Of a stretch of 64,000 nucleotides of DNA, positions 8,476 through 19,835 are shown piece by piece (the stretch's first letter is position 1; every line of letters begins with the position of its first letter). The translations under genes and the position numbers were made by a program. The notes beneath the pieces are model-generated. The model ran no database searches. It was not told where the DNA came from and was given only the letters and a program-made list of their open reading frames with translations. The stretch spans positions 1-64,000 of the forward strand of contig CAIXPL010000022.1 in the NCBI GenBank assembly GCA_903921325.1. Reading direction: 5' to 3'. Source of the stretch: an uncultured Pseudomonadota bacterium (GTDB lineage: Bacteria > Pseudomonadota > Gammaproteobacteria > Burkholderiales > SG8-39).

Positions 8476-10230
8476 ATGTCTGAAACAGGCAATGGTTCAA
8501 TCATTCTGGATCGCTCTGACAAGGTCGATGAACTCAGCGAGCGCCAGCGTCAGGAAGGATTGATCAAGACAGGGGCATTGCAGAGCGCGATTTTCAATAG
8601 CGCTAACTTCTCTAGCATCGCCACCGATGCGAAGGGCGTTATCCAGATTTTCAATGTGGGTGCCGAGCACATGCTGGGCTATACCGCCGCAGATGTGATG
8701 AACAAAGTCACGCCTGCCGACATTTCCGATCCGCAAGAAGTGATTCTTCGTGCCAAAGCGCTGAGTGTCGAGCTCGGCACACCGATTACGCCGGGCTTTG
8801 ATGCACTGGTATTCAAGGCCTCGCGCGGTATTGAAGACATCTACGAGCTGACCTATATCCGCAAGGACGGCAGCCGCTTCCCGGCGCTCCTATCGGTCAC
8901 CGCCTTGCGCGATGTGCACAATGCCATCATCGGCTATTTGTTGATCGGCACCGATAACACCGCACGCAAAGGCGTCGAAGCAGACCGGGCGCTTCTGGAT
9001 CAGGCCCTGCAAGAGAAAAACGCCGAGCTTGAGACCGCCACGTTTGTGGCGGAAAAGGCCAACCTCGCGAAATCACATTTCTTGTCATGCATGAGCCACG
9101 AACTACGCACGCCGCTCAGTGCCATCCTCGGATTTGCTCAGGTGCTCGATGCCGGTTCGCCCCCGCTTACAAGTTCACAGAAGCGCAGCGTTGATCAGAT
9201 TCAAAAGGCGGGTTGGTATTTGTTGGAACTCATCAACGAAATCCTCGATCTCGCGCTCATTGAGTCAGGCAAGCTGCCGCTATCGCTCGAGCCGATCTTG
9301 CTGAGTGAGGTCGCGCGCGAATGTCAGGCGATGATTGAACCGCAGGTGCAAAAGCGCGGCATTCGCATGACATTTCAGTGGTCCGGGCTCCCCTACGCGG
9401 TTCAGGCCGACCGCACACGGTTGAAACAGGTTCTCATCAACCTGCTCTCCAATGCGATCAAATATAACCGGATGGGAGGGACGGTCGAGGTGACCTACAC
9501 CGAAAGTGCGCCAGGACGCATTCGTATCTGTGTCAAGGACACTGGCGAAGGACTGCCCGAGGAGAAGCTTGCACAACTGTTTCAACCGTTCAATCGACTA
9601 GGGAATGAAACGGGGGGCGAGGAAGGCACAGGCATTGGTCTGGTGGTATGCAAGCGCTTGGTCGAATTGATGAATGGCGAAATCGGTGTGGAGAGCGCCG
9701 TCGGTATCGGTAGCACCTTTTGGTTCGAACTGGGTCTGACCGCTGAGCGGCAGCGAGCTGAGCACGCGTTGGCGTGCGTGGCCGTTGTGCAGGCGCCGCT
9801 GCACTCGGGTGCCCGGTCAAAGACCCTGCTTTATGTCGAGGACAATCCGGCCAATATGATGCTCGTAGAGGACATCATTGCATTGAGGCCGGATATTCGT
9901 CTGCTCCGTGCAATCGATGGCAAAAGCGGTATCGAGCTTGCGCAAGCTGCCTTGCCCGATGTCATCCTGATGGACATCAATCTTCCAGGTATCAGCGGAA
10001 TCCAGGCGCTGCAGGCGCTCAGTGCCGATGCTTTAACAGCACACATTCCCGTGATTGCGCTGAGTGCCAACGCCATCCCGAGGGATATCGAAAAGGGTCT
10101 GGCCGCCGGCTTCTACCGTTATCTCACCAAACCAATCAGAGTCAATGAATTTATGAATACGCTGGACGAAGCCCTTACGTTTGCGCAATCGCGGGTGCCG
10201 CAGGAAGCCACGGTGCAGAAAGCATCGTGA
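8476..10230 (+). CDS. Hybrid sensor histidine kinase (PAS-HisKA-HATPase-REC), cytoplasmic
   Basis: The product of 584 residues has a PAS domain (about 35-155), a coiled linker, the HisKA box SHELRTPLSAILGFAQ with phospho-accepting His208, and the ATPase N box (LINLLSNAIKYN), G1 box (DTGEGL) and G2 box (GTGIGLVVCKRL). A C-terminal receiver domain carries Asp500 in ILMDINLPG and the conserved KPI. No membrane segment or signal peptide is visible, so it should sense a cytoplasmic signal through PAS. The ATG at 8476 has CGAGG in front; the GTG at 8446 would add ten residues. The downstream gene begins inside its stop codon (GTGA), so the two are a coupled pair. Confidence 0.9.
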   Translation: MSETGNGSIILDRSDKVDELSERQRQEGLIKTGALQSAIFNSANFSSIATDAKGVIQIFNVGAEHMLGYTAADVMNKVTPADISDPQEVILRAKALSVELGTPITPGFDALVFKASRGIEDIYELTYIRKDGSRFPALLSVTALRDVHNAIIGYLLIGTDNTARKGVEADRALLDQALQEKNAELETATFVAEKANLAKSHFLSCMSHELRTPLSAILGFAQVLDAGSPPLTSSQKRSVDQIQKAGWYLLELINEILDLALIESGKLPLSLEPILLSEVARECQAMIEPQVQKRGIRMTFQWSGLPYAVQADRTRLKQVLINLLSNAIKYNRMGGTVEVTYTESAPGRIRICVKDTGEGLPEEKLAQLFQPFNRLGNETGGEEGTGIGLVVCKRLVELMNGEIGVESAVGIGSTFWFELGLTAERQRAEHALACVAVVQAPLHSGARSKTLLYVEDNPANMMLVEDIIALRPDIRLLRAIDGKSGIELAQAALPDVILMDINLPGISGIQALQALSADALTAHIPVIALSANAIPRDIEKGLAAGFYRYLTKPIRVNEFMNTLDEALTFAQSRVPQEATVQKAS

Positions 10231-12976: not shown

Positions 12977-13306
12977 ATGACTACGAAACGCTCGCTGGTT
13001 TTGCTTGCCTTGGTGGTTGTTGGTGCGGTCGCGGTCGTTTTGCGCACGGGTCGCTTTGCGCATGGGTCGCGTTGACCCAATCACTGAGCCTGCGAACGTG
13101 ACATCACTGCCGGTGATCGACATCGCGGAAACACAAACCGAGTTACGGAATGTGCTTTCCGCCTATCGCCTGGCCGTCCGGCCACCGAGCTCGCCGCCTA
13201 CGTGGCGCCAGCCGTGGCCGCCGTATCTCACCAGACCCCGGCATTTGGTAGTTTGCCCGGGTCCGAAGGCTTTGCCGTAGCACTCGCAGAGGAGCGCGCG
13301 CCTTGA
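12977..13306 (+). pseudogene. Broken small exported or membrane protein gene at the head of the cluster
   Basis: Coding sense can be followed through two frame changes. The first piece starts MTTKRSLVLLALVVVGAVAV, a clear membrane or signal segment. Removing one copy of a 16-bp tandem duplication at 13039-13070 joins it to VDPITEPANVTSLPVIDIAE and what follows. A second shift near 13160-13185 returns to the first frame, giving TELAAYVAPAVAAVSHQTPA and ending at TGA 13304-13306. That stop overlaps the TTG start of the DUF1190 gene, the same overlap seen at the second DUF1190 copy, which supports a once-real coupled gene. It could also be intact if the frame changes are sequencing errors. I do not recognise the family. 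Confidence 0.45.
13039..13070. repeat. 16-bp tandem duplication causing a frameshift
   Basis: TTTGCGCACGGGTCGC at 13039-13054 is followed directly by the same sequence with one change (C to T) at 13055-13070. Sixteen is not a multiple of three, so the duplication moves the reading frame by one. It puts a TGA at 13073-13075 in the frame of the small upstream gene. Confidence 0.8.
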
Positions 13307-13692
13307 AACGATCCAAAGTTGTCCCTCTGCTGGTCCTTGGTTCACTGTCAGGGTTGTCGGCATGTGGCGACAAAGACGTTCATGAACTTCGGCAACATTA
13401 TTATCAGACGCTGGATGCCTGCCAGCGTGATTGGGGTAGCACGTCAAATTGTTCGACTTCCCCGTCAGGGCACGGGGGTGGGTCTGGCGTGGGACTGTAT
13501 TGGGGACCTCAATTTTACTGGGACAGAAGTACCGGGAATCCAGTCGCAGTCGATGAGAACGGTCGAACCCGCGCCATTTCAACATCCCGATTCACCAGTG
13601 ACGAATCGGCGCTCGGTTCCCGTTTCCGGGCCGGGTCAGTATCACGTGGAGGCTTTGGCGGTACTGGGCGCGGCGGCTCTGCAGGCGGCTGA
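13303..13692 (+). CDS. DUF1190 (YgiB/YjfM-like) lipoprotein, copy 1
   Basis: The 129-residue product starts KRSKVVPLLVLGSLSGLSAC, a lipoprotein signal with lipobox LSAC. It then has a Cys-containing stretch, a GPQFYWDRSTGNPVAVDENG segment and a C-terminal SRGGFG motif. These match E. coli YgiB/YjfM, whose genes sit beside the ATP-grasp genes ygiC/yjfC. The start is TTG at 13303, preceded by GAGGAG, and overlaps the TGA of the broken upstream gene. A second copy lies after homospermidine synthase (15136-15555). The two share the first 20 residues and the middle block but differ elsewhere. Function is unknown; it acts at the inner or outer membrane. Confidence 0.8.
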   Translation: MKRSKVVPLLVLGSLSGLSACGDKDVHELRQHYYQTLDACQRDWGSTSNCSTSPSGHGGGSGVGLYWGPQFYWDRSTGNPVAVDENGRTRAISTSRFTSDESALGSRFRAGSVSRGGFGGTGRGGSAGG

Positions 13693-13745
13693 TGCAACGG
13701 TTCATGACCATCCCCGCGAGAACCACGACAGTCAGTAAGAAATGA
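13692..13745 (+). CDS. 17-codon mini-ORF, likely relic of an ATP-grasp ligase start
   Basis: This short frame begins with an ATG that overlaps the stop of DUF1190 copy 1 (TGATG) and ends with a TGA that overlaps the ATG of homospermidine synthase (ATGA). Its opening bases ATGCAACGG and next codons resemble the start of the ATP-grasp gene at 15555 (ATGCAACGGCTCAAGATCAA). That gene stands in the same place after DUF1190 copy 2. It may be the stump of a duplicated ligase gene that still carries translating ribosomes from one gene to the next. Confidence 0.45.
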   Translation: MQRFMTIPARTTTVSKK

Positions 13746-15139
13746 AAGCGAATCTTCCCTCCTCAGTGCTGATCGTAGGTTTTGGCAGCATTGGGCAAGG
13801 TCTGCTTCCACTGCTGTTGAAGCACTTTGACTTTTGTCCGACTCAGATTGTCGTCATTGCGGCTGATCCAGAAGGTCATTCTGTTGCCTATCGCCACGGT
13901 GTCCAACACGAGGTCTCTGCACTGACAGAATCCAACTATCGTTCAGTCCTTGCGGGTCGCCTACGGGCTGGGGATTGGCTAATCAATGTTTCCGTTGAAG
14001 TATCATCGTTTGCACTCATTGATTGGAGTCGCCAGGCAGGCGTGTTGTACTTGGACACCTGCGTCGAGCCTTGGGCTGGTGGATACCAAGCGTCAACCTC
14101 ATCAAGTGCCACAACGAACTATGCCCTTCGCCATCAAGCACTGTCTCTGAGTTCGCCAGGTTGCCCGACTGCCGTCATCGCCCACGGCGCGAATCCGGGC
14201 TTGGTAAGCCATTTCGTCAAAGCCGGTTTGTCGGCGCTTGCAAAGCTCAAGGGAATTCAGAAAGACCACTCGTGGCCCCACCTTGCTGAGCGCTTGCAGA
14301 TCAAGTCGGTTCAAATTGCGGAACTGGATACTCAAGACGGACCGATAACGCTCGGATCAGATGAATTTGCAAACACATGGTCGGTGGATGGTCTTCTGTC
14401 CGAAGCAGCCCAATGCCCCGAGATGGGGTGGGGTTCTCACGAACAGGCGCTTCCCTTGCTCGGGCGACGCCATTCGTTTGGAGATCAGTCTGGCATTTTC
14501 GTTGATTGCCGGTCGCAAGTTCTCATGGCCAGATCCTGGGTCCCCTCAATTGGCGCTCAGCGCGGACTGATCATTACCCACCATGAAGCCCTTTCCATCG
14601 CAAGTCTCCTGACTGTCCCAGGTCCGTCCGCATCTGAAGCCGTTTACCGGCCTACAGTTTATTACGCTTATCACCCTTGCCGATTAGCACTGAATTCGCT
14701 GAGCGCTTGGCAATTAAGGGGCCGTACGCCCCCGCAGACTAAGGTGTTGCTGCGTGATCAGCTCGATTCCGGCTTCGATGAGTTAGGTGCGTTGCTCGTA
14801 TTTCCGGGTGGGGCGTATTGGTACGGGTCGACACTGCGGCTTGAAGCAGCGCGCCATCTGGCCACCAATAATAACGCGACCACAATGCAAGTGGCGGCTG
14901 GGATCCTCGGTGCCCTGGAATGGATGCGCCACTCTCCCGATGCGGGGGGTGTTGAGGCTGAATCAATGGATCACGACATCGTATTGAGAACGGCGCTGCC
15001 CTTTCTTGGCACATTGCGAGGGGTTCTGACCGACTGGCAACCCAACGCGCGTGGAAGCTTGCGGCTTAACGACTTCTTAGTCGAACCGTCAAACTTCACG
15101 GAATTGAATCCACCCTCGCTGAGGGGGGGCGCAATTTGA
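13742..15139 (+). CDS. hss: Homospermidine synthase
   Basis: The 465-residue product makes sym-homospermidine from putrescine in an NAD-dependent reaction, in the cytoplasm. It starts with a Rossmann motif (VGFGSIGQGLLPLLLKHF) and keeps the family blocks: YLDTCVEPW with Glu109 and Trp111, the HGANPGLVSHFVK block, NTWSVDG with Trp213, GWGSHEQALP, THHEALSIA with His280/His281, and YRPTVYYAYHP. The length is normal for bacterial Hss. It is embedded between two DUF1190 genes with ATGA and TTGA overlaps on both sides, so it is translated as part of the cluster. This predicts that the neighbouring ATP-grasp ligase uses homospermidine or a related polyamine, which is inference. Confidence 0.93.
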   Translation: MKANLPSSVLIVGFGSIGQGLLPLLLKHFDFCPTQIVVIAADPEGHSVAYRHGVQHEVSALTESNYRSVLAGRLRAGDWLINVSVEVSSFALIDWSRQAGVLYLDTCVEPWAGGYQASTSSSATTNYALRHQALSLSSPGCPTAVIAHGANPGLVSHFVKAGLSALAKLKGIQKDHSWPHLAERLQIKSVQIAELDTQDGPITLGSDEFANTWSVDGLLSEAAQCPEMGWGSHEQALPLLGRRHSFGDQSGIFVDCRSQVLMARSWVPSIGAQRGLIITHHEALSIASLLTVPGPSASEAVYRPTVYYAYHPCRLALNSLSAWQLRGRTPPQTKVLLRDQLDSGFDELGALLVFPGGAYWYGSTLRLEAARHLATNNNATTMQVAAGILGALEWMRHSPDAGGVEAESMDHDIVLRTALPFLGTLRGVLTDWQPNARGSLRLNDFLVEPSNFTELNPPSLRGGAI

Positions 15140-15555
15140 AACGATCTAAGGTCGTCCCCCTCATCGTGCTTGGCTCACTGTCAACCCTATCGGCCTGCGG
15201 TGACAAAGAGGACGCGCAGGCGTTTCGGCAACTGACTTATCAAGCCCGAGATGCTGGCCAGCGCGATAGGGGGGCGCCATCCGATTGTTCGGCTTCGCGT
15301 CCGGGCGATGGCGGTGGGCCGACTGCTGCAGGCTATTTGGGACCTCAATTTTATTGGAATAGAAATGCAGGGTATCCAGTTGCCCTTGATCAAAATGGCG
15401 AATCCGTACCTGTTCCCAATTCCCAATCCGCCTGCAGTGGAGCCGGAGGACAGGGAGGTGGCGGCGGCGGGGCAGGCGGGGGAGATTCACATGCCAAGTT
15501 GATTTTGCGAGGCGGTTTTGGCGGAATAGGGCACGGTTTCTCAGGAGGCGGCTAA
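15136..15555 (+). CDS. DUF1190 (YgiB/YjfM-like) lipoprotein, copy 2
   Basis: The 139-residue product shares the opening KRSKVVPL.VLGSLS.LSACGDK with copy 1 and has the same GPQFYWNRNAGYPVALDQNG block and the RGGFG motif near the end. A Gly-rich insert lies before that motif. The start is TTG, overlapping the TGA of homospermidine synthase (TTGA), with GAGGGGGGG in front. Its TAA overlaps the ATG of the ATP-grasp gene (TAATG). Order DUF1190 then ligase is the same as in E. coli ygiB-ygiC and yjfM-yjfC. Confidence 0.8.
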   Translation: MKRSKVVPLIVLGSLSTLSACGDKEDAQAFRQLTYQARDAGQRDRGAPSDCSASRPGDGGGPTAAGYLGPQFYWNRNAGYPVALDQNGESVPVPNSQSACSGAGGQGGGGGGAGGGDSHAKLILRGGFGGIGHGFSGGG

Positions 15556-16673
15556 TGCAACGGCTCAAGATCAACCCTCGCAATGACTATGTCAAAAGGC
15601 TAGAAGCGCAAGGCTTGTCGTTTCACTCCTGGGATGATTACTGGAAGGAGGACGTTTGCTATCAATTCAGTCTGAAGCAGATTGAAGAGATCGAGGCTGC
15701 CACGCAAGAACTTCATGCCATGTACTTGAACGCCATGAAGTTCGCGATCGAGGGCAAGCGACTGGGCAAGTTGGGTATCCCAGCGCAATTCTGGAAGGGA
15801 ATCGAGGCATCAATGGAGCGGGACGATTTCTCGCTGTATGGTCGCTTCGATCTCGCCTATGACGGAAAGTCACCCCCCAAGTTACTTGAATACAACGCAG
15901 ACACGCCCACGTCCTTGCTCGAATCGGCCGTGTGCCAGTGGTACTGGATGGAGGATGTGTACCCGCAGTATGACCAGTTCAATTCCCTTCATGAACGACT
16001 GGTGGCACGCTGGAAGCAACTTCCCGTCAAGGGTCTCGTACATCTGGCCTTGATTGACGGAAACGAGGAAGACTGGGTTTGCGCGACCTACCTGATGGAC
16101 ACACTTGTGCAGGCAGGTCGTGCGACCAAGCACATTTATATTGGCGATGTCGGTTGGGATTCTGCCGCCAAATGCTTCGTCGATCTGGACGATCAACCGA
16201 TTGAAACTCTCTTCAAACTCTATCCGTGGGAATGGTTGATGCGAGAAGAATTTGGAATACACCTGCTGGAAGGTACGACCAGGTTCATCGAACCGTTATG
16301 GAAGTCGGTGCTTTCCTGCAAGGGGTTGTTGTCCATTCTGTGGGAGCTGTATCCCGGGCACCCAAATCTTCTGCCCGCCTATTTCGACCAGCGTTCTCTG
16401 GTGTCCTACGCACGCAAGCCACTGTATTCTCGCGAGGGTGCCAATGTAGAGTTGGTCGACAATGGGCGCATCATTGCACAGGCCGTTGGCTCCTACGGAG
16501 ATGAAGGCTTCATTTATCAGGCACTGCACACGCTGCCGAAGTTCGATGACCGCTATCCCGTTATTGGTGCGTGGGTGGTCAATGGCGCTGCGGCCGGGAT
16601 GTGCATCCGAGAGGACGTTTCACCGATTACAACCAATATGAGCAATTTCGTTCCCCACTTCTTTATCGAATGA
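15555..16673 (+). CDS. Glutathionylspermidine-synthase-family ATP-grasp ligase (YgiC/YjfC-like)
   Basis: The 372-residue product aligns along its length with E. coli YgiC/YjfC and the synthetase half of glutathionylspermidine synthetase. Shared blocks include LYGRFDLAYDG, LLEYNADTPTSLLE, FKLYPWEW, the HPNLLPAYF loop, KPLYSREGANV, YGDEGFIYQ, IGAWVVNG and CIREDVSPIT. Enzymes of this fold use ATP to join a carboxylate to a polyamine amine. It lacks the amidase half, as YgiC does. The real substrates of the YgiC group are not settled. Here the gene follows homospermidine synthase and a DUF1190 gene with stop-start overlaps, which points to homospermidine as the amine. A DUF350 gene follows at once. 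Confidence 0.9.
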   Translation: MQRLKINPRNDYVKRLEAQGLSFHSWDDYWKEDVCYQFSLKQIEEIEAATQELHAMYLNAMKFAIEGKRLGKLGIPAQFWKGIEASMERDDFSLYGRFDLAYDGKSPPKLLEYNADTPTSLLESAVCQWYWMEDVYPQYDQFNSLHERLVARWKQLPVKGLVHLALIDGNEEDWVCATYLMDTLVQAGRATKHIYIGDVGWDSAAKCFVDLDDQPIETLFKLYPWEWLMREEFGIHLLEGTTRFIEPLWKSVLSCKGLLSILWELYPGHPNLLPAYFDQRSLVSYARKPLYSREGANVELVDNGRIIAQAVGSYGDEGFIYQALHTLPKFDDRYPVIGAWVVNGAAAGMCIREDVSPITTNMSNFVPHFFIE

Positions 16674-16684
16674 GGATGATGACC

Positions 16685-17065
16685 ATGGTCGATGCCGTTA
16701 TTGCTTTTGCCATCTATCTTGCGACTGCGTCTGTATTCCTCCTGGCCTTTGTGCTTATCTATATCCGATTCACGCCCTACGATGAGTTTGCCCTGATCGC
16801 GCATGACAATACTGCGGTCGCGATCACTCTGTCCGGTGCCGTTCTCGGTTTCACGTTCCCCCTGGTCTCTTCGATTTACTACACCCAGTCGATAGAGGAA
16901 ATGGCGATTTGGGCCGCCATTACCTGTGCGGTGCAGCTTGCCGTGTTCCTCGTGTTGCGCAGGCAGGCAAAGCGGATCGAACAAGGGCACATTGCTTCAG
17001 CGATCATGGTGGCAACGTTTTCGATCGCCGTCGGCATCTTGAATGCGGTCAGCATTAGCCACTGA
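16685..17065 (+). CDS. DUF350 (YjfL-like) small integral membrane protein
   Basis: The product of 126 residues has about four hydrophobic segments and the family's first-helix and loop pattern (AIYLATASVFLLAFVLIYIR, then ALIAHDNTAVAITLSGAVLG). E. coli yjfL, yjfM and yjfC form the same trio of DUF350, DUF1190 and ligase genes. I chose the ATG at 16685 because AGGA lies 8 bases before it. An ATG at 16670 overlapping the ligase stop is also possible. A 6-bp GC hairpin (17098-17117) without a T run follows the gene. The family's function is unknown. Confidence 0.85.
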   Translation: MVDAVIAFAIYLATASVFLLAFVLIYIRFTPYDEFALIAHDNTAVAITLSGAVLGFTFPLVSSIYYTQSIEEMAIWAAITCAVQLAVFLVLRRQAKRIEQGHIASAIMVATFSIAVGILNAVSISH

Positions 17066-17306: not shown

Positions 17307-19835
17307 GTGAAACTCAAATCGGTACTCCTCATTGCGTCGGCTGTCGCCGGTGCGATGATCTCTGGCTGCGGTAGCAGCGACAGCTCAACCGCCGCGGCGC
17401 CGACCTCGACGCGCACCATTGTGATGGTCTGGGACGGCTTGCGGCCCGACTCGATCAACCCGACCGACACGCCCAACCTGTACAACCTGCGGCAAAGCGG
17501 CGTGAACTTCGCCGATAACCACTCGACCTACCCGACGTTCACCATGATGAACGGTCAGAGTTTTGCCTCGGGCTCTTTCCCAGGCCCGGCGGCTGCGAAC
17601 ACCACGGCCGGCACCGGCAGCGGGTTCTACGGCAACACCTATTGGGCGGGTCAGAGTGATACGACCCTTACGGCAGGATCGGAAGATGCCAACTCGAGCA
17701 CCTTCATCGGCAGCGCGACTGTGGCGGTCGGTGCCGGCACAACACTGTTCGTTGAACCCGTATTTACCGAAGACCATCTGATCCTTGATCAGTTGAACGC
17801 GTATTACAAGACTCAGGGCGATGTCGGCCTGCTGCTGGTCAAATCGCTGTTTGCGACCGCGCAGGCGGCTGGCTTGAAGACCGCGGCGATCGGAAAGTCC
17901 GGTGCTGCCTTCATTCAGGATTTCACGCAAAGCACGGCGACCAGCGCTGTATTTGTGGATGAAAACTCCGTGCGGCCGGCCAAACTGGTGAAAGACCTGG
18001 TCGCCGCCGGCTACCCGCTGCCGCTCAACACCAAGAATGATGTTCAGTACGCCGGTGCGAACGACCCGACTGGTACGGCAGGCGGGTTGACGACCTACAT
18101 GAGCACCCAGTTCCCTGCGGCACCGACCTATTTCGGTGGTGCAGTGACGCTGCAGACTGCCGCGTACGCCGATCCGGTCACCAACACCGGCGGGTTGATT
18201 GCCGCGAACGATCCCTCCGACAACGCGCAGGGCGCAACCGAAGACCCTTCCAACAAATACATGATGCATGTGTACAAGGACTTCATCCTGCCCAACGCAA
18301 GCTACCGGCCTGACCTCACGCTGATCTGGTTTCGTACACCGGACAATGTCGAGCACAGTTACGGTCCAGGTTCTCCCAACGCGCTGGCCGGTCTGCGTTC
18401 GCAGGATGCCCGTCTGGGTGAGTTGATCACTGCGCTGAAAGACAATGGTCTGGACACCACAACCAACATCATCGTCGTGTCTGACCACGGTCACAGCACG
18501 GTCTCGGGTCCTGTCACCACGTTCCCGCTGATTGCGCTCACTCCGAACTCGAGTGCAGCCGTGGCCTACACCTATGGACCCAATGGCGCCGCCTACCCCG
18601 GCACGACCACCAATACCGGCACAGCGTTGGGGGCCACCACGACCAATACCGGTAGTTTTCGTAGTACCACGGTCGCCACGGATCCAACCAAACCTGCAAC
18701 GTTCGGTAACTTGAGCACGGCCACCCCCGGCGGCTATTCGTTCTCTGGTGATATTCGAATCGCTGATCTGCTGTACTACCGTGGTCTGAATGCTTATGAC
18801 GGTAGCGGTTGCTCAAGTTCCTTCATGGCGGGTCTGGTCGCCGGTACGACGCCAGTGCTCCTGCAGAAGAAGGAAACCTCAGTGGGTCAGTATTGCAATC
18901 CGGTCGTAGGTGCTGCCAACGTCGCGGTGAAAACCTATATGGGCATCAGCGATGTACCGGGCCCGAGCCAGACACTGGGTGGACGTGCCAATTTCCAGCT
19001 TCCCTCGAAGAGCGCGACCTACGCCGCAAACTTCGTGATGTCGACCAATCAGGGCGGTTCGGATTTCATTTACGTACCCTCCGGTAACCAGGCCACGGTC
19101 GCCGCAGTTGTGAAATCTCTGCAGCAACGTCAGGAAATCGGAGCGATATTTGTCGCGAGCAAGTATCTGGTGTCGTCTGCCTCGCCCGCGATCAACGGTG
19201 TCATGCCGATGTCGGCGGTCAATCTTGAGAACACGACCCGCGCCGGCAAAGGTCAACCCGATATCGTGGTCAGCTTCAACTGGGATGGCACCATCGTCTC
19301 GACGACATCGACCATCGACGCAGGCACGGTGAGCCATGTGGGCCAGATGGTGCAGGGCATGCCCGGCACCACGTTCGAGAGTTTTGCCGCACGCCATGGC
19401 ATGCATGGCAGCATGGGTACCACTGATGTGCACAACACCTTGATCGCCAACGGACCGTCGTTCAAGATCGGTTATGTCGACACATTCCCGAGCGGCAATG
19501 TCGACGTGGCGCCCACAGTTGCCTATGTGTTGGGCACTTCGATGTCACAAGCGCAGGGGCGGATTCTTTCCGAGGCTATCGTAGGCAGCGTGGCAACTCC
19601 GACGGTGGTGTCGCAAGTGCTTGATCCAAGCGCCTTTGGCGTCACCAAGCTTGCCACTGGTCTCGTTCACGAATCGTTGACCGATCAGACCGGTGTCAAG
19701 GCGGCGACGGTTGCCAATGGCGACCCGGCCACGCTGTCAGTGGGTAGCTATTCGATCAACATGGCGGTCAAGGATCTGACACTGAATGGTGCGAAGTACC
19801 GCTACTTCGACTACGCTCAACCAGTCAGAAACTGA
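17307..19835 (+). CDS. Large alkaline-phosphatase-superfamily lipoprotein (phosphodiesterase/pyrophosphatase type)
   Basis: The 842-residue product starts with a lipoprotein signal (lipobox ISGC, Cys21). It then has the metal-binding motifs of type I phosphodiesterase/nucleotide pyrophosphatases: VWDGLRPDS, the nucleophile region NHSTYPTFTMMNG, WFRTPDNVEHSYGPGS, VVSDHGHS, and far downstream RHGMHGSMGTTDVHN with the last His ligand. Inserts of low-complexity Thr/Gly sequence (about 410-470) lengthen it well beyond the usual 400-500 residues. The GTG at 17307 is supported by AGGAGA 8 bases upstream; the longer frame from 17043 has no signal peptide. The substrate is unknown. It would act in the periplasm or at the cell surface, and an exported protein gene follows 19 bases later. 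Confidence 0.82.
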   Translation: MKLKSVLLIASAVAGAMISGCGSSDSSTAAAPTSTRTIVMVWDGLRPDSINPTDTPNLYNLRQSGVNFADNHSTYPTFTMMNGQSFASGSFPGPAAANTTAGTGSGFYGNTYWAGQSDTTLTAGSEDANSSTFIGSATVAVGAGTTLFVEPVFTEDHLILDQLNAYYKTQGDVGLLLVKSLFATAQAAGLKTAAIGKSGAAFIQDFTQSTATSAVFVDENSVRPAKLVKDLVAAGYPLPLNTKNDVQYAGANDPTGTAGGLTTYMSTQFPAAPTYFGGAVTLQTAAYADPVTNTGGLIAANDPSDNAQGATEDPSNKYMMHVYKDFILPNASYRPDLTLIWFRTPDNVEHSYGPGSPNALAGLRSQDARLGELITALKDNGLDTTTNIIVVSDHGHSTVSGPVTTFPLIALTPNSSAAVAYTYGPNGAAYPGTTTNTGTALGATTTNTGSFRSTTVATDPTKPATFGNLSTATPGGYSFSGDIRIADLLYYRGLNAYDGSGCSSSFMAGLVAGTTPVLLQKKETSVGQYCNPVVGAANVAVKTYMGISDVPGPSQTLGGRANFQLPSKSATYAANFVMSTNQGGSDFIYVPSGNQATVAAVVKSLQQRQEIGAIFVASKYLVSSASPAINGVMPMSAVNLENTTRAGKGQPDIVVSFNWDGTIVSTTSTIDAGTVSHVGQMVQGMPGTTFESFAARHGMHGSMGTTDVHNTLIANGPSFKIGYVDTFPSGNVDVAPTVAYVLGTSMSQAQGRILSEAIVGSVATPTVVSQVLDPSAFGVTKLATGLVHESLTDQTGVKAATVANGDPATLSVGSYSINMAVKDLTLNGAKYRYFDYAQPVRN

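Follow-up and report, generated by a model that had tools for sequence, protein, structure and literature searches.

Genes for homospermidine synthase (hss) and a homolog of glutathionylspermidine synthetase (gss) lie next to each other in several beta-proteobacteria and in phage Motura, and glutathionylhomospermidine was suggested as the product of these clusters (PMC9992855). An ATP-grasp ligase, DUF350, and DUF1190 are also reported beside polyamine genes in operons linked to PspA, for which a 2019 study of S-adenosylmethionine (AdoMet) decarboxylase is credited (PMC11237479). Here we describe an operon found in a stretch of 64,000 nucleotides (the window) of contig CAIXPL010000022.1 (assembly GCA_903921325.1) from an uncultured bacterium of the SG8-39 lineage of Burkholderiales. 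On the + strand, between positions 13303 and 17065, it comprises lipoA, hss, lipoB, a gene for a YgiC/YjfC-type ATP-grasp ligase, and one for a DUF350 protein, in this order; lipoA and lipoB code for small lipoprotein-like proteins, called here companions of the ligase.

With a probability of roughly 50%, we regard the operon as a self-contained polyamine-conjugation unit, in which homospermidine would be produced locally and attached to the glycine that ends the companion. In such a unit homospermidine synthase (Hss) would form homospermidine from putrescine, and the ligase, judging by the chemistry of its family, would activate a C-terminal carboxylate with ATP and join homospermidine to it. 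The acceptor would most likely be the last glycine of the RGGFG...GG tail in LipoA or LipoB, and the product a lipoprotein whose tail bears a cationic polyamine, with the DUF350 protein as a membrane partner; the ligase being presumably cytosolic, the tail would be modified before export. A broader proposal is advanced tentatively: ligases of the YgiC/YjfC family may be dedicated protein-tail polyaminases, which form an amide between the C-terminal glycine of an envelope lipoprotein acting as their partner (signature RGGFG and terminal S-x-G-G) and the polyamine of the cell, homospermidine here and spermidine elsewhere. The gene arrangement and the idea of a homospermidine conjugate are already in print (PMC9992855, 2023), while the tie between an S-x-G-G companion tail and the YgiC/YjfC-type ligase is apparently new. 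Literature listings on RGGFG, DUF1190, YgiB/YjfM, and ATP-grasp/lipoprotein/polyamine contained nothing pointing to the tail, an idea that may still be in print.

The ligase and the tails of its companions

Among PDB entries the ligase is closest to YgiC (E 1.1e-99) and YjfC (E 1.6e-94) of Escherichia coli, with which it shares 46% and 45% identity, respectively. Glutathionylspermidine synthetase (GspS) is matched at E 1.8e-33, and trypanothione and glutathionylspermidine synthetases are more distant than YgiC/YjfC. The Pfam GSP_synth domain (PF03738) covers residues 15–369 of 372 (E 4.3e-143) and no amidase domain is present. Assignment as a glutathionylspermidine synthetase proper was rejected: the protein consists of the synthetase part only, versus ca. 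620 residues of amidase plus synthetase, and it scores 164 bits against the NCBIfam model of the bifunctional enzyme, with a cut-off of 882. Residues R97, D99, E112, N114, K250, K288, and R352 are identical in all 18 rows of the clade of Hss-linked ligases described below and align with those that we take, from the GspS literature, to bind ATP and Mg. The sequence-only reading of this DNA, which preceded our analysis, depended on these residues being kept, as they are; it also treated the YgiC/YjfC ligases as an orphan family, whereas in RefSeq the two E. coli members are called peptide--spermidine ligases.

Companions were sought at 225 ligase loci, 137 of them bacterial (the window, 11 reached via Hss, two of E. 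coli K-12, and 123 from genome searches) and 88 from viruses or phages, some of them duplicates; 80 ligase places were taken from one larger set. Loci with less than 1 kb upstream of the ligase (3/137 bacterial and 7/88 viral) were excluded, and 14 GspS-type loci (open frames of 621–673 amino acids) and 40 Hss-only loci served as controls. When both strands were searched, an RGGFG-type companion was found at 124/134 bacterial loci, a spurious one in L148 being excluded, and at 74/81 viral loci; 0/14 GspS-type and 0/40 Hss-only loci have one. By a narrower test, which asks for an open reading frame (ORF) near the ligase that combines the motif [GS]G[FYW][GTF] with a tail rich in Gly/Ser/Ala, a companion is present at 115/134 bacterial and 72/81 viral loci, versus 27 of 6180 other ORFs. 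The 81 viral loci retained comprise 69 distinct ligase sequences, 60 of which have a companion according to this test. The companion gene lies upstream or downstream of the ligase gene, or in a divergent operon.

The companion ends converge on S-x-G-G, which is a preference and not a strict rule. A Gly-Gly end occurs in 115 of 172 unique companion tails, versus 14.9 after per-tail shuffling (sd 3.6, maximum 29 in 5000), and in 68 of 109 when each ligase cluster is represented by one row (shuffled 10.3, sd 2.9, maximum 24); the supposition that all companions end in Gly-Gly was thus rejected. The automatic pick took a wrong ORF in L139 and L143, where true companions exist, and its choices in L148 and L151 were spurious; the sets of 172 and 109 contain three of these four picks. 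After their removal 169 unique tails remain, 115 of them still ending in Gly-Gly; position -4 is Ser in 116, position -3 varies, and Gly occupies -2 in 143 and -1 in 119. The distance from RGGFG to the end varies from 7 to 48 residues, yet the residues of the tail end are position-conserved. All 17 listed companions of Hss-linked ligases end in Gly-Gly, and that of L278, a member of the same ligase clade with no Hss seen, ends in GGS. A lipobox pattern is present in 77/109 companions, and a Cys pair in the Hss group.

LipoA and LipoB are 54% identical, both have lipoprotein-like starts, and they carry the set of features used here as a definition, i.e. an N-terminal anchor, RGGFG, and a Gly-Gly end beside a YgiC-type ligase. 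The DUF1190 label given to them earlier held in part. Neither protein matches Pfam DUF1190 (PF06693) at E<=1, and membership of that family was rejected, but an indirect tie exists: LipoA matches phrog_3739 (E 6.9e-5), as does E. coli YgiB (E 2.4e-63), and among relatives the companion of phage Motura scores 20.9 bits against PF06693 (E 4.9e-4) and that of L064 18.0, with the cut-off at 22, while that of L039 has no match. LipoB has no match to phrog_3739. Both are therefore filed as YgiB/DUF1190-like. An AlphaFold model of LipoB built with 13 sequences has a mean pLDDT of 57.5, below 50 in the tail, and is too poor for a fold search. The DUF350 protein matches Pfam PF03994 with 102.5 bits (cut-off 26; E 2.4e-29).

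GspS activates the C-terminus of glutathione, which is a glycine (PMC6272389). Since a member of the ligase family acts on a C-terminal glycine and the partner of the YgiC/YjfC-type ligases has a position-fixed Gly-Gly end, the companion C-terminus is the best candidate for the acceptor, and the glycine terminating its tail would receive the amine. The envelope or peptide carboxylate envisaged in the sequence-only reading is thereby narrowed to a putative acceptor, a companion with a position-conserved, mostly Gly-Gly C-terminus.

Phages carry such pairs as well. At L117, L118, and L275–L354 T4-like and jumbo phages pair the ligase with an RGGFG lipoprotein, most of them with no hss nearby; a YgiB-like lipoprotein of unknown role has been noted in phage Moon (PMC4319498). 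In phage DSS3_VP1 (L116) no companion was found on the sequenced piece examined and the ligase gene adjoins a potassium-channel-like gene, a neighbour matched at 21/137 bacterial loci.

Homospermidine synthase and the amine

Hss of the window matches homospermidine synthases in PDB over residues 3–436 of 465 (best E 2.5e-104). The residues proposed for substrate binding and catalysis in such enzymes, Asn162, Glu210, Trp229, Glu237, His296, Glu298, Tyr323, and Asp361 (PMC4725965), are all identical in the window protein, as found by alignment to Blastochloris viridis Hss, in which the chain index plus 2 gives the published number. On the basis of its family and catalytic residues the enzyme is predicted to make homospermidine from putrescine.

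The genome collection was scanned for Hss with patterns derived from the window protein, which biases the result to near relatives; of 79 matching stretches, 51 could be confirmed. A ligase gene is adjacent in 11 of these 51 loci, always in the order hss–lipoprotein–ligase (11/11), and DUF350 comes next in 8/11. The hosts include Methylovorus, Zoogloea, Massilia, and Telluria as well as metagenome-assembled Gallionella, Comamonadaceae, and Cellvibrionaceae. Among 300 genomes of the window's order, Hss is present in 42 and the ligase in 28, and the two are adjacent in the window genome and in G082. In Achromobacter phage Motura the order is hss, a companion ending in Gly-Gly, and the ligase, with a DUF350-type protein two genes further; altogether hss is near the ligase in 4/88 viral loci, Motura being counted twice. 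The hss–lipoprotein–ligase association is more than chance, and the arrangement that the sequence-only reading had proposed to seek in other genomes, hss beside a YgiC-family ligase and its partners, recurs in several lineages and phages. At L122/L033 (G082) Hss and the companion lipoprotein share a single open frame with no stop between them, and in Telluria antibiotica (L084, 8687–9889) the Hss-linked ligase is read as two ORFs (8687–9295 and 9302–9889), either because the frame is broken or through an error in sequencing.

In a tree of 131 ligases, 15/16 Hss-linked ones fall into one clade of 18 rows (SH-like approximate likelihood ratio test, SH-aLRT, 99), which also contains three with no adjacent hss (L121, L275, and L278). 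The interrupted ligase of L084, Hss-linked, and the cut one of L285 were left outside the tree. The sole Hss-linked ligase outside the clade, L269 (G953), lies within a group several members of which have SpeE-like genes upstream; it represents a second, apparently independent association with Hss, by a ligase of another clade, and its companion, encoded downstream, ends in GGG. In a tree of 87 Hss rows a single branch separates the ligase-linked proteins from all others (one label change). Of four clade members or close relatives lacking an adjacent hss, three have an Hss elsewhere in the genome or record: G052, G1019 (L275; 231,255 bases), and G1022 (L285). None was found in the fourth, L278, a 111-kb fragment, though its ligase belongs to the clade, nor in five phage records with other ligases, which may be fragments.

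The ligase residues W174, V175, and E171 are specific for the Hss-linked clade, each in 18/18 rows, and position 364 is occupied there by Asn (10), His (5), or Tyr (3), while 86/113 other rows have Arg; E. coli YgiC and YjfC have Arg at both 174 and 364. The most discriminating ligase columns are 26 and 22, and we know of no amine-site role for these or for others such as 350. W174 and V175 adjoin positions aligned to Glu391/Glu392 of GspS, and position 364 aligns to its Asp610. In GspS these residues are described as spermidine-binding or as recognising the N8-amine (PMC6272389, PMC2702004).

The host genome, 98% complete, codes for one Hss and has one match to the ornithine/arginine decarboxylase family; searches of it for AdoMet decarboxylase, for an enzyme of the deoxyhypusine-synthase type (SpeY-type), and for carboxy(nor)spermidine decarboxylase found none. 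Since these three are missing, Hss is the sole complete triamine route recognised in the host. Homospermidine is likely the amine used by the ligase, in line with the sequence-only reading: the linkage (11/51), the single ligase clade, the residues of this clade, and the polyamine genes of the host all point to it.

The possibility of a polyamine synthase at every ligase locus was rejected when loci sampled by their ligase were searched: within 5 kb, Hss occurs in 3/124, a SpeE-like gene in 9/124, and SpeD of the E. coli type in 0/124, other types of AdoMet decarboxylase not having been searched for. In L123, L124, L128, L132, L134, L139, L142, L143, and L145 the SpeE-like gene is located 1.2–2.8 kb before the ligase start and on the strand of the ligase gene, roughly where the window has hss, as though one polyamine synthase could replace another.

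Weighing the readings

Several observations weigh against conjugation of homospermidine to the companion tail. No companion was found at 10/134 bacterial and 7/81 viral loci, although in four of them (L223, L255, L119, and L323) a variant of the motif occurs in an ORF upstream. Among the 169 tails, 37 terminate in Ser, 7 in Ala, and 5 in Glu, such endings occurring in phages and some bacterial groups. LipoB has lost the Cys and Trp that are nearly invariant in its relatives, retaining the RGGFG...GG tail. With its N-terminal anchor and, in the Hss group, a Cys pair, the companion is expected to have its tail in the periplasm, out of reach of a ligase that needs ATP, unless the modification comes first. 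The sequences compared are related and the viral ones include duplicates (Motura twice), so the shuffle counts are not probabilities; relatedness inflates the counts, an effect that the reduced set makes smaller but does not abolish. As regards the amine, several branches in the Hss tree are long and brought a warning from the tree program, and Hss of G052, L275, and L285 group with solo and not with linked Hss, which speaks against strict co-inheritance. In addition, one host protein exceeds the cut-off for spermidine synthases, at 33.8 bits; the co-substrate usual for this family would be lacking.

The ligase might instead join homospermidine to glutathione to give glutathionylhomospermidine, a soluble thiol sensed or used by the companion and the DUF350 protein as envelope partners. 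This product was proposed for hss–gss clusters (PMC9992855), and the ligase is kin to glutathionylspermidine synthetase, as noted above, with several aligned active-site residues kept. We consider it unlikely in view of the RefSeq name of the E. coli members and of the distribution of the companion, usual at YgiC-family loci and found at none of the 14 GspS-type ones, which a soluble product would not explain. The periplasmic location expected for the companion body and the tails ending in Ser, Ala, or Glu would suit another reading, namely that the ligase makes some other small peptide–polyamine product and the tail, which could occupy the binding site for the peptide C-terminus, is a product-mimicking sensor or regulator instead of the substrate; it appears distinctly unlikely, as no gene for a peptide was noticed in a constant position beside the four genes (hss, lipoprotein, ligase, and DUF350), ORFs of fewer than 45 codons not having been examined.

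The position of hss could also reflect nothing but shared expression of a general polyamine supply, with a ligase accepting any polyamine present. The rarity of hss and SpeE-like genes near ligases sampled directly (3/124 and 9/124 within 5 kb) and their absence from the E. coli ygiC and yjfC loci agree with this, but linked Hss are separate from solo Hss in the tree, signature residues of their own mark the amine site of the linked ligases, and phages carry the same hss–ligase pair, and we find a mere sharing of expression very unlikely.

Conjugation to the companion tail, if it takes place, would mean that bacteria possess a system of C-terminal protein polyamination, shared with jumbo and T4-like phages, in which the amine is chosen by the ligase clade. 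The S-x-G-G signature gives a single testable answer to two questions, the target of YgiC/YjfC and the role of YgiB/YjfM: the lipoprotein would be the substrate. The version with Hss suggests an amine that varies with the clade of the ligase, and the pairing would account for the joint presence of ligase and lipoprotein in many phages.

The window locus and its relation to known systems

The features of the locus are collected in Table 1. The genes from hss to the DUF350 gene are coupled via stop–start overlaps, read in the sequence as TTTGA (hss/lipoB), TAATG (lipoB/ligase), and ATGA (ligase/DUF350). Of the six overlapping units claimed in the sequence-only reading, five are genes, with overlaps from hss to DUF350, and region 12977–13302 was rejected as a gene of the operon: it contains only a 32-codon ORF and broken open stretches, and a Pfam scan at E<=1 gave no family for the ORFs at 12977–13075 and 13005–13280. 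A decayed gene is possible there, upstream of lipoA. The TGATG and ATGA junctions described between lipoA and hss are present, but belong to a mini-ORF of 17 codons (13692–13745). Its bases are identical to those of the ligase gene start in 13 of the first 15 and 21 of the first 33, and it is a portion of a 70-base repeat of 76% identity. The simplest account is that it is probably a stub left by duplication of the lipoprotein gene together with the beginning of the ligase gene. Apart from the window, none of the Hss-linked loci examined showed a second RGGFG ORF in front of hss.

Table 1. Features of the polyamine-linked operon in the window (aa, amino acids)
Feature	Position	Strand	Basis
lipoA, YgiB/DUF1190-like lipoprotein-like protein, 129 aa, TTG start, end RGGFGGTGRGGSAGG	13303..13692	+	phrog_3739 match
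LipoA tail with RGGFG motif and Gly-Gly end	13645..13689	+	
Mini-ORF, 17 codons, like first codons of ligase gene	13692..13745	+	base identity/repeat
Homospermidine synthase (Hss), 465 aa	13742..15139	+	PDB similarity, Pfam scan, residue alignment
lipoB, second YgiB/DUF1190-like protein, 139 aa	15136..15555	+	
LipoB tail with RGGFG motif and Gly-Gly end, bearing the proposed acceptor carboxylate	15508..15552	+	
YgiC/YjfC-type ATP-grasp ligase, putative peptide-polyamine ligase, 372 aa	15555..16673	+	PDB YgiC, Pfam GSP_synth
W174-V175, signature of Hss-linked ligase clade, beside E172/D173 (aligned to GspS Glu391/Glu392)	16074..16079	+	
N364 of ligase, aligned to GspS Asp610; Asn/His/Tyr in Hss-linked clade	16644..16646	+	
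DUF350/YjfL-type membrane protein, 131 aa	16670..17065	+	Pfam

A scan of the operon for promoters and terminators gave no excess over shuffled sequence. Downstream, at 17307–19835, lies a gene for a large phosphodiesterase/nucleotide pyrophosphatase-like protein with a lipoprotein-like start (Pfam PF01663, E 8.5e-34), which is not in the groups common to the compared loci. The flanks of 14 loci were compared. The supposition that nothing recurs there was rejected, as among the groups looked up of those common to at least three loci enoyl-CoA hydratases occur in 4/14, ca. 2 kb or more off, and assorted EAL, response-regulator, and sensor-kinase proteins in 6/14; since these shared groups recur at no fixed place, the four genes look like a unit.

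The PspA-linked operons resemble the locus in having the ligase, DUF350, and DUF1190 partners next to polyamine genes; they differ in that, in the account of PMC11237479, they contain a CesT/Tir–PspA pair or its replacements and genes for AdoMet decarboxylase or spermine-synthase-like proteins. Within 5 kb of the window ligase no match to PspA, DUF2170, DUF2491, SpeD, or SpeE was found (tblastn with E. coli proteins, E<=1e-3), and the view of it as a PspA-linked stress operon was rejected because PspA and DUF2170 are unmatched there. The ligase belongs to the same family as GspS and trypanothione synthetase and shares their conserved active-site residues; unlike GspS, it has no amidase domain, and GspS-type loci have no RGGFG companion. 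The E. coli loci of YgiC/YjfC with YgiB/YjfM are similar to the window in the ligase family and in the companion ending in Gly-Gly directly upstream, and differ from it in the Arg residues of the ligase at 174 and 364 and in the lack of a polyamine synthase, as the sequence-only reading had correctly stated for ygiBC and yjfLMC. In the hss–gss clusters of PMC9992855 homospermidine synthase adjoins a homolog of glutathionylspermidine synthetase; the passage of that paper on these clusters names glutathionylhomospermidine as the product and does not discuss the companion tail. The window cluster is of that kind, and is distinguished from those described there by its two lipoprotein copies and the ligase stub.

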